39,261 nt of DNA from Candidatus Aminicenantota bacterium (lineage in GTDB: Bacteria; Acidobacteriota; Aminicenantia; Aminicenantales; UBA4085): NCBI GenBank assembly GCA_016931595.1, contig JAFGEN010000294.1, positions 1-39,261 on the forward strand. The letters run 5' to 3'. The notes beneath the pieces were generated by a model. That model was given only the letters and a program-made list of their open reading frames with translations, was not told the origin of the DNA and ran no database searches. The position numbers and the translations under genes are program-made. Shown here one piece after another: positions 29,391 through 32,149 of this stretch. Positions within the stretch are counted from its first letter, which is position 1. Each line of letters starts with the position of its first letter.

Positions 29391-30722
29391 ATGATCAATG
29401 TCTTAGGCACGATTCTCGCGTTTCTGATCGTTTTCGGCATCCTCGTCTTCATCCATGAGTTCGGCCATTTCTTCACCGCTAAGCTGGTCGGCATCCGGGT
29501 GGAGGTCTTCTCTTTCGGTTACGGAAAGCGGCTGTTCGGGGTGAAGAAGGGGCATACCGATTACCGCATCAGCATCCTGCCGATGGGCGGATATGTCAAA
29601 TTCCTAGGGGAAGGCGTGTACGAGCCGGGCAAGGTCCTGGAACCGGACGATTTCGCGGCCAAGACCCGCTTCCAGAGGTTCATGGTCATCCTCATGGGCC
29701 CGGTCATGAATATCCTCCTGGCCGTGGTGATTGTCGCCGGGATCAACATGGTCGGGGTGGATGCGCCCGAGTACCAAGACCAAGCCCCTGTCATCGGCTG
29801 GATCGAGCCGGGGTCGCCCGCTTCCAAGTCGGACCTCCTACCCGACGACCTGATTTTGGCGATCAACGGCCGCAAGACCGCGACCTGGACCGATGTGGAA
29901 ATCGCCGTCGGGACAAAGCCCGACCGACTGCTGACCATCGACATCCGGAGGGACGGCCGAGAGGTCAGCGTGCCCATGCAGACCGAGAGCCGGACGAAGT
30001 ACGATATGGGATATGCCGGGTTTTACGGCAAGATCCTGACCCAGGTCCAGATGATCTCCCCGGGGTCGCCGGCCGAAAATGGCGGCCTTCGCCAGGGGGA
30101 CGTCATCAAGGCGATCAATGGCGAGCCGGTCTATTTTTACCGTTTTGTCGAAATCGTCGAGGCCAACGCCGAGAAGGAATGCGAGTTTCTGATCGAGAGG
30201 GATGGGGCGGAGATGACCCTCCGCATCACCCCGCGGCGGGAGGGAGATGTCGGGAAGATCGGGGTCATGCAGACGGCCAAGTCCGTCATCAAGAAGTATG
30301 CGTTTTTCCCCGCGATCGGCCAGAGCTTCAAGGAAAACAAGCGCCTGGCTTTTCTTGTCATCGACTTTCTCAAAAACCTCATCACCGGCCAGGCTTCGGC
30401 CAAGCAGCTCGGCGGGCCCCTGGAAATCGCCAATTTTTCATACGCCGCCCTGAAGATGGGCTTCCTTGCCCTGATGAGCTGGATTGCGGTCATCAGCCTG
30501 CAACTGGGGATTTTGAATCTCTTCCCCATCCCGGTTTTCGACGGCGGGCAGCTGTTCGTCCTGGTCGTCGAGGGCATCATCCGCCGGGACCTCAACCCCA
30601 AGGCCCGGCAGATCTGGATGCAGATCGGGTTCGTCATCTTCGTCGTTTTGATCGCCTTCGTCATTCTGAACGATATCGTCAAGCGGCTGCCGCACGGCTG
30701 GAGCAGCTTGTTGCCGTTCTAG
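29391..30722 (+). CDS. rseP: Site-2 protease RseP-type zinc metalloprotease
   Basis: A 443-residue intramembrane protease. The zinc motif HEFGH (His22, Glu23, His26) lies in the first transmembrane helix, and the third ligand is in NLFPIPVFDGGQ near residue 385. Two PDZ domains lie between, at about 115-195 (GWIEPGSPASKSDLLPDD) and 205-285 (MISPGSPAENGGLRQGD). Further membrane helices close the C-terminus. In E. coli RseP releases sigma E by cutting the anti-sigma factor RseA; here an ECF/anti-sigma pair is encoded at 10068-11347, which could be a substrate (inference only). Last gene of the uppS cluster; a hairpin-rich element follows. Confidence 0.95.
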   Translation: MINVLGTILAFLIVFGILVFIHEFGHFFTAKLVGIRVEVFSFGYGKRLFGVKKGHTDYRISILPMGGYVKFLGEGVYEPGKVLEPDDFAAKTRFQRFMVILMGPVMNILLAVVIVAGINMVGVDAPEYQDQAPVIGWIEPGSPASKSDLLPDDLILAINGRKTATWTDVEIAVGTKPDRLLTIDIRRDGREVSVPMQTESRTKYDMGYAGFYGKILTQVQMISPGSPAENGGLRQGDVIKAINGEPVYFYRFVEIVEANAEKECEFLIERDGAEMTLRITPRREGDVGKIGVMQTAKSVIKKYAFFPAIGQSFKENKRLAFLVIDFLKNLITGQASAKQLGGPLEIANFSYAALKMGFLALMSWIAVISLQLGILNLFPIPVFDGGQLFVLVVEGIIRRDLNPKARQIWMQIGFVIFVVLIAFVILNDIVKRLPHGWSSLLPF

Positions 30723-30739
30723 ATTTCGTCGGCTTTTCA

Positions 30740-30945
30740 GGGATTGGCAATTCAGGGTCCTGCCGCGCGTCGCGGGCTTTGCCGTCCTCCCCGCCCTCGT
30801 CGCGAGGGCAGCCCCGATGCCCTGGCTCCCAAGGGTCGCGTAGGACAGCAAAGCCTAGTGCTCGCTCCACCCATCCCCCAGCGGGTCCCTTCCGCTGCGC
30901 GCGGCGGGGCGCGCCGCTCGGCGCCACCCTGAATCGGCCAATCCC
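30740..30945. mobile_element. MITE-like element with terminal inverted repeats
   Basis: A 206-bp non-coding GC-rich element. Its ends are near-perfect inverted repeats: GGGATTGGCAATTCAGGGT (30740-30758) and, on the other strand, GGGATTGGCCGATTCAGGGT (30945-30926). They differ only by A versus CG. TTTTCA occurs directly outside the left end (30734-30739) and, one base away, outside the right end (30947-30952), as a possible target duplication. Inside are nested palindromes: GGCTTTGCCGTCCT (30775-30788) pairs with 30842-30855 with one mismatch, GCCCTCG/CGAGGGC at 30793-30809, and CAGCGG/CCGCTG at 30879-30897. No transposase is encoded. It could also act as a terminator or processed RNA structure. 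Confidence 0.6.
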
Positions 30946-31030
30946 GTTTTCAATCACATGGAATCGTCTGGAGCCGGCAATATTCTCCGGATAAAAGAAG
31001 AAATCGCGTTCCTCCGGCCGGGGATTCGGA

Positions 31031-31042: not shown

Positions 31043-32149
31043 ATGAAAACGAAAGCCGCGGAGCTGTTTCCCCGAAGAAAATCGGTCCGGATCAAAATCG
31101 GAAACGTGGAGATCGGGGGGGGGGCTCCAGTCAGTGTCCAGTCGATGACCAAGACCGACACGAGAAATATACGGGCGACGGCCGCCGAGATCCGCCGCCT
31201 AGCCGCGGCCGGATGCGAGATCGTCCGCCTGGCGATTCCAGATGACGAGGCGGCCCTGGCCTTCGGCCGGTTGAAAAAATCCGCTTCCGTTCCGCTGATC
31301 GCCGACATCCATTTCGACCACCGCCTGGCCTTGGCCTGCCTTGACGGGGGCGCCGACGGACTCCGCCTCAATCCCGGCACGATCGGCTCTCGGGACAAGG
31401 TCCGCGACGTCGTCCGGGCAGCCCGGGAAAGGGCCGTCCCGATCCGGGTCGGAGTCAATTCCGGTTCGGTCGAACGAGGCCTTCTCAAGGCCCATGGCGG
31501 GGCGACGCCTGCGGCGATGGTGGAAAGCGCCCTCCGCCATGTCCGGATTCTCGAGGACCTCGACTTCCGCTTGATCAAGATTTCGATCAAGGCGTCCGAC
31601 GTCGTACGGACGGTCGAGGCCTACCGGCTCCTGGCGGCGAAGACGGACTACCCTTTTCATACCGGAATCACCGAGGCCGGGCCGCTCGTGCCCGGGGCGG
31701 TGAAGTCGGCCGTGGGGCTGACGCTTCTCTTGGCCGAAGGACTGGCCGACACCATCCGGATTTCCCTGACCGCCCCTTCGATCGAGGAAGTCAGGGTTGC
31801 TTATTTGCTTCTGGGTTCGGCCGGACTCCGGACCCGGGGCGTCGAAATGATTTCCTGCCCGACCTGCGGCCGGTGCGAAGTCGACCTGCTTAAGATTGTC
31901 CGGGAGATCGGGCGTGCTCTCTCCGGTATAACCGCTCCGCTCAAGGTGGCCGTCATGGGCTGCCCGGTCAATGGGCCGGGGGAGGCGAGGGAAGCCGATA
32001 TCGGAGTGGCCTGCGGGCGGAAGTCGGGGACACTGTTCGCCGGCGGGAAAATCATCCGAAAAATTCCGGAGAAGGATATCGTTCCGGCCCTGGCGGCGTT
32101 GGCCGATCAGGCTGCCGCCTCTCGAAGGCGCCGGGGGAGGACGGCATGA
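31043..32149 (+). CDS. ispG: 4-hydroxy-3-methylbut-2-enyl diphosphate synthase
   Basis: A 368-residue [4Fe-4S] enzyme converting MEcPP to HMBPP in the MEP pathway. The TIM-barrel half has PVSVQSMTKTDT, LIADIHFDHRLAL and LRLNPGTIG. The C-terminal half holds the cluster ligands: SCPTCGRCE with two Cys, and GCPVNGPGEAREADIG with the third Cys and the Glu ligand. Length is normal for the short bacterial form. The GGGGGG run near codon 27 is in frame and appears genuine. The ispG stop overlaps the larE start (ATGA). Confidence 0.97.
   Translation: MKTKAAELFPRRKSVRIKIGNVEIGGGAPVSVQSMTKTDTRNIRATAAEIRRLAAAGCEIVRLAIPDDEAALAFGRLKKSASVPLIADIHFDHRLALACLDGGADGLRLNPGTIGSRDKVRDVVRAARERAVPIRVGVNSGSVERGLLKAHGGATPAAMVESALRHVRILEDLDFRLIKISIKASDVVRTVEAYRLLAAKTDYPFHTGITEAGPLVPGAVKSAVGLTLLLAEGLADTIRISLTAPSIEEVRVAYLLLGSAGLRTRGVEMISCPTCGRCEVDLLKIVREIGRALSGITAPLKVAVMGCPVNGPGEAREADIGVACGRKSGTLFAGGKIIRKIPEKDIVPALAALADQAAASRRRRGRTA

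Follow-up and report, generated by a model that had tools for sequence, protein, structure and literature searches.

The intergenic region between rseP and ispG in a draft genome of a Candidatus Aminicenantota bacterium contains a 206-base inverted-repeat structure (30740–30945), and the question that it raises is whether this structure is a unit that moves, an RNA that the cell reads, or some combination of the two. An earlier note, made from the sequence, had described it as a MITE-like element. Short dispersed palindromes in bacteria are usually limited to related species and are treated as selfish or structural. The window, meaning the whole 39,261-nucleotide stretch that was analyzed, is contig C311 of an 87%-complete bin of 373 contigs (G000). 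The features of the window needed here are the following.

29391–30722, + strand: rseP, the upstream gene (TIGR00054, E 6e-93, NCBIfam); stop codon at 30720–30722, 17 bases before the element
30734–30739, + strand: TTTTCA, which may form a direct repeat with the copy at 30947–30952; not a rule for the family
30740–30754, + strand: left outer arm, copy-specific (GGGATTGGCAATTCA); pairs with 30930–30945; its terminal sequence occurs once in the genome
30755–30769, + strand: module 5' end, with the family-conserved GGGTCCTG and the start of the stem; 34 aligned copies start with this motif
30774–30855, + strand: second hairpin, interrupting the module's left strand (GGGCTTTGCCGTCCT ... AGGACAGCAAAGCC); contains the dispersed 29–37-nt repeat TGCCCTGGCTCCCAAGGGTCGCGTAGGAC
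30858–30904, + strand: conserved apical core, GTGCTCGCTCCACCCATCCCCCAGCGGGTCCCTTCCGCTGCGCGCGG; holds most of the invariant alignment columns and is found across phyla
30905–30929, + strand: right stem strand and conserved module 3' end GCCACCC; many relatives' matches stop near query position 190
30930–30945, + strand: right outer arm, copy-specific (TGAATCGGCCAATCCC); pairs with the left arm and is unique in the genome
31043–32149, + strand: ispG, the downstream gene (TIGR00612, E 5e-119, NCBIfam); ATG at 31043, 97 bases after the element

A composite inverted repeat between rseP and ispG

The left arm GGGATTGGC-A-ATTCAGGGT (30740–30758) pairs with the right arm ACCCTGAAT-CG-GCCAATCCC (30926–30945) with one A/CG interruption, just as the terminal inverted repeats of 19–20 bases had been described. 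The suggestion that the stretch may fold as RNA was borne out by the predicted energy of the whole 206 nt (−122.7 kcal/mol versus −92.2 ± 4.5 kcal/mol for shuffled sequences; z = −6.73), which was equaled by none of 200 shuffles. As for the reported lack of coding capacity, none of the open reading frames crossing 30740–30945 is a convincing gene, although mechanical ORFs do run through it. The proposed TTTTCA duplication was not confirmed as such. Both copies are present, one G off flush. A direct 6-mer repeat as close as this pair occurs in about 0.4% of random placements in the window, and a flanking 6-mer repeat was found at just 2 of 63 non-redundant module copies (0.4 expected), so that no duplication rule holds for the family.

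When the 206-nt stretch was compared with its own genome using BLAST, 18 matches were obtained, consisting of the element itself and partial matches (e.g. query 13–77, 74–116, and 79–107); the copy on contig C101 matches query 13–77 at 91%. Matches were also detected in 22 of 59 relatives, mostly to query 119–190 (30858–30929) and often many per genome. The outer terminal-repeat pattern, on the other hand, was found at a single site in the own genome, the window element itself, even with up to 2 mismatches allowed. The 206-base stretch is a mosaic of repeats rather than one repeated unit. What survives of the non-autonomous transposable element is therefore that its parts are dispersed, not that a 206-bp unit with those ends is repeated.

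The nested palindromes seen inside the stretch are real, but they are parts of two separate dispersed repeats. In the module described in the next section, which spans 30755–30929, the left strand is split by a repeat-derived hairpin of about 82 nt (30774–30855), and the window copy may be a relic. The TGCCCTGGCTCCCAAGGGTCGCGTAGGAC repeat inside the hairpin (window ~30818–30846) has about 16 further occurrences in the own genome, several of them at contig ends, and the second-hairpin repeat is absent from the ~97–102-nt module copies of other genomes. By locus, the TGCCCTGGCTCCCAAGGGTCGCGTAGGAC repeat (variant GCCCTGGCTCCGAGGCGTCGCAAAGGACGGCAAAGCC) was recorded at window 30818–30846 and at L003–L008 and L016–L025 of the own genome, in many cases at contig ends. 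Some of its copies sit between TAACCTGGATTAT..ATAATCCAGGTTA inverted ends that resemble a separate MITE.

At the rseP-ispG junction, the module is present in the window genome, in G008 as a divergent copy (37 bits), and possibly in G005 (23 bits, E 0.011), which represent three different genera. Short junctions without it were found in G002 and G003, both of the same genus as the window genome, and in G004, which supports the earlier note on this point. Given this distribution, the window copy is not an old fixed feature of the junction. A fixed RNA structure at orthologous positions, which the earlier note had set against a mobile element, is borne out in part elsewhere, with the module vertically conserved between nuoA and nuoB in Nitrospira, but not at rseP-ispG.

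A dispersed hairpin module and its fold

The repeated unit has the form GGGTCCTGTC-(stem)-CGTSCTCGCTCCACCCATCCCCC-N-GTGGG..CCCTTMCGCTGCGSGCG-(stem)-GCCACCC and is usually about 96–102 nt long in the loci of several genomes that were compared. An alignment of 34 diverse copies, from which a covariance model (R1) was built, has about 30 invariant columns, many of them outside the stems, while the stems vary by compensatory change. In this alignment, 93.4% of cells are paired and 74 cells are double-changed, whereas shuffles gave 23.8 ± 4.4; when the partners were shifted by a single column, the score fell from 0.27 to 0.05. In two of the pairs, U-G occupies 32 or 33 of the 34 rows, and a third pair is G-C in some rows and G-U in others (pairs 17-113, 42-88, and 18-112). 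Because the U-G pairs would be A-C on the opposite strand, the selected fold is the one on the strand carrying the C-rich core. One module copy folded both ways gave a z of −5.2 in the sense and −2.2 in the antisense direction.

Searches of ten loci against Rfam at the curated score gave no match to the module, with chance-level matches only at a relaxed threshold, and the core string was found in no paper of the literature searched. An HDV-like ribozyme, considered on account of the string UCCUCGCU, was rejected: Rfam lent no support, and a C of the string is replaced by G in 13 of 34 copies.

Some variants of the module were also seen. In Nitrospirae bins (L128, L159, L191, L195, and L203) the module has an additional domain in its loop, almost constant in length (~77 nt), between the core CCCCC and CCCCTTNCGCTGCGGGCG. 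In Manganitrophus (L123, L124, and L188) the core and inner stem are retained with the GGGTCC/CCACCC base swapped for AACGATTTGATTTGTAGTGGGC ... GCCCACAGA, and L188 has two module copies close together.

The R1 model detected the module in 31 of 59 relatives, with 4 matches in the own genome, 55 in G005, and at least 60 in G036. It also found the module in ten genomes of other groups, including Nitrospira moscoviensis (6), a groundwater gammaproteobacterial bin (G062, at least 108), and G066 (17). Many of the matches in G062 are opposite-strand neighbors about 140 bp apart. Copies are present in 36 of 76 Nitrospira genomes; among 149 genomes drawn from across the phylum to which the window belongs, just 4 carry one. 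When the GTDB collection was searched with an exact 19-mer from the core, at least 120 stretches matched, and the matches listed include Nitrospira, Manganitrophus, Rokubacteria, Methylomirabilota, Omnitrophota, Saccharicenans, and the groundwater gammaproteobacterial bin. Matches in Kitasatospora and a few others lack the rest of the module and were set aside as chance. No exact core was found in IMG/VR viral contigs, and searches of plasmids and phages at distant sensitivity did not find the module. Since many related genomes are without a copy, the element is dispensable. Its patchy spread over deep divergences looks like that of something moving between lineages. The usual short palindrome is confined to related species, whereas this core of about 47 bases recurs with its covarying stems in phyla that are very distant from each other, behind genes and for the most part in a single orientation.

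In the gammaproteobacterial bin and others (L118, L122, L187, L190, and L214), the module lies inside a larger inverted shell, GCGGATTATTCATGAACG ... CGTTCATGAATAATCCG, the ends of which we take to be reminiscent of those of IS1380-like elements.

Orientation, copy-specific arms, and the nuoA-nuoB site

The strand with the C-rich core tends to be co-linear with the gene immediately upstream. With gene ends defined by ORFs filtered by length and GC3 only, 19 copies were sense and 4 antisense within 20 bp downstream of a stop codon, and a second set of loci, a few of which overlap the first, gave 6 sense versus 1 antisense within 25 bp.

Beyond the GGGT..ACCC ends of the module, the two flanks of one copy pair far better with each other than do flanks taken from different copies; the pairing exceeded the 99th percentile of the null in 18 of 63 non-redundant copies and the 95th in 29 of the 63. 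Several right arms mirror the terminal bases of the gene upstream. Examples are nuoA (GAATGGGAYTGAGC vs GCTCAGTCCCATTC), a gyrA-like gene in G007 (TGAAGAGCCGGAAGG vs CCTTCCGGCTCTTCA), rseP of G008 (CTGAAAAAATGATGG vs CCATCATTTTTTCAG), and the copy on contig C68 of the window genome. Some mirrored arms take in the stop codon or coding bases (nuoA, the gyrA-like gene, and rseP of G008). Template switching in replication is known to write reverse-complement copies and to build hairpins (PMC8794818), and is the simplest known explanation for arms of this kind. Alternatively, they may have been produced on insertion, by a process that writes an inverted copy of the flank. Insertion of the module into pre-existing hairpins was considered as well and not favored: at comparable junctions of relatives neither the module nor a palindrome is present, although the alignable ones are too diverged to settle the matter. 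If the arms were indeed made by template switching, they would provide a natural series for watching hairpins grow.

The outer arms are repeats in their own right in some genera, and the module is therefore nested in larger elements there. Long arms of the L032 type were at first candidates for a copied gene end; because the same arms recur in other copies of the genus, they represent a larger repeat shell and are no evidence for flank copying.

A case of inheritance at one site is seen in Nitrospira, where the module lies directly behind nuoA and ahead of nuoB and is vertically conserved. Among 68 nuoA-nuoB junctions, the full module was identified in ten and decayed forms in two (L274 and L295); of the remainder, some are short (17–38 bases) and others have unrelated palindromes. 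Mean p-distance among the ten full copies was 4.2% for the 47-nt core, 11% for the left part, and 19% for the right stem, as compared with 26% for the right arm and spacer and 41% for nuoA third positions. Silent sites are thus close to saturation, yet the inherited copy shows very little change. With 4% divergence in the core as opposed to 41% at nuoA third positions, selection seems to hold the module here, which suggests, for one site in one genus, that it is useful where it has settled; this is the clearest sign of such usefulness. Conversion between copies could possibly mimic selection at this site.

In about a dozen other Nitrospira species (e.g. L293, L272, and L320), nuoA and nuoB are separated by a different palindromic element of ~120–185 nt, TGAAGGGCGGTGGG ... 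CGTGCTCGCCCACCGCGCAC ... CCCACCGCCCTTCA. It has the string GTGCTCGCYC.ACC in common with the module, and its arms also start at the nuoA stop codon. Still other species have additional palindromes, unrelated to these, between the two genes, so the junction collects hairpins.

Proposed role and competing readings

Judging from the comparisons above, the module family belongs with the REP- and MITE-like dispersed palindromes, is new, and most likely acts as RNA. We lean towards reading the window stretch as a composite copy of this unnamed hairpin family, that is, a structured RNA in sense orientation flanking gene 3' ends, of transposable origin, and with arms lengthened by template switching. 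Past spread of the module would be due to a process resembling transposition; hairpin-templated copying of the neighboring gene end would then have lengthened the outer arms of inserted copies. In the transcript it would act as a rod-shaped 3'-flanking or intercistronic hairpin, for example by protecting or processing mRNA between genes, or by binding a widely conserved protein via the conserved bulges and apical loop. The window copy would comprise a sense module between rseP and ispG, another hairpin of repeat origin within the left strand of that module, and outer arms of its own. The near constancy of the core in inherited copies suggests some use to the cell. If the RNA reading is correct, the module would be a mobile regulatory part kept by many lineages, and the nuoA-nuoB locus of the cultured Nitrospira moscoviensis would be a defined target for finding the factor that reads it.

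A more specific version can be put forward tentatively. It holds that an RNA element spread horizontally across phyla, settles in sense directly behind stop codons, serves through its invariant bulges and C-rich apical loop as the binding or processing target of a conserved factor, became fixed in important operons such as that of nuoA-nuoB, and has arms that are the inverted end of the host gene.

It is rather unlikely that the module is instead of the REP type, in which a folded single-stranded DNA hairpin is spread by a TnpA-REP (RAYT) HUH transposase and a host function is unnecessary. The likeness is nevertheless considerable. REP, REPIN, and BIME sequences, associated with RAYT genes, are dispersed palindromes located mainly downstream of genes in several phyla; some REP families, which include the GTAG and CGTC super-families, are nested in larger palindromes, and G-U pairs suggest a function as RNA (Di Nocera 2013; PMC3733652). 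The module is likewise palindromic, dispersed, patchy, close to gene 3' ends, and often nested in palindromes, and Y1_Tnp genes are present in 29 of 39 relatives, with two in the own genome. However, no module was found within ~1.5 kb of 42 RAYT loci (30 + 12, some on shorter contigs), nor was a RAYT-like ORF seen in loci surrounding module copies. REPs also measure 20–40 nt, with a stem of 5–13 bp and an unpaired GTAG or CGTC tag, whereas the module is ~100 nt with a long conserved core and bulges, is sense-oriented just after stops, and has no unpaired GTAG/CGTC tag, the CGTSC of its core being paired and covarying (pair 43-87). Its strong conservation at the inherited nuoA-nuoB site likewise does not fit an element without a host function.

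Improbable, too, is a classical MITE moved by cut-and-paste, with a transposase recognizing the outer 19–20-bp inverted repeats and TTTTCA as its target duplication. The inverted ends with their flanking 6-mer, the empty rseP-ispG junction in relatives, and the occurrence of some module copies within larger repeated inverted shells are in line with it, and MITEs such as NEMIS, RUP, and ERIC similarly are non-coding, intergenic, hairpin-forming elements of 70–300 bp that can be co-transcribed with their neighbors (PMC3733652). Yet the outer ends are unique to the window copy and differ from copy to copy, the repeated unit being the inner module, and together with the missing duplication rule this largely refutes the classical MITE. 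A transposase with the same terminal repeats, which had been expected under that reading, was not found in the 87%-complete own genome, nor was a RAYT gene adjoining the module seen. An autonomous element, with a gene between the module halves, was sought and none was found, only loop variants of about 20–80 nt; in the own genome, which is 87% complete and breaks at repeats, no gene-length spacing of left and right halves was seen except for one unrelated second copy.

We give little credence to non-functional quasi-palindromes that grow and persist by template-switch mutation alone. Such a process, the mechanism of which is known (PMC8794818), would account for arms that mirror neighboring sequence and fits the several unrelated palindromes at nuoA-nuoB in different Nitrospira, but it leaves the dispersed core, with its ~30 positions invariant across phyla, and its slow divergence unexplained. 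An intrinsic terminator or attenuator of rseP and similar genes is very unlikely: the module does form a strong sense hairpin right after stop codons and GTTTTC trails the window copy, but T-runs of at least 4 follow only 3 of 63 copies, with no excess over the reverse-direction control, so the copies are not intrinsic terminators; moreover, none was called at the window element, the Nitrospira site lies between two nuo genes, and a terminator would not need a conserved core.

Elsewhere in the window, at 2456–2586, there is a further 27-nt inverted repeat, with arms that are 78% complementary and 77 nt between them.
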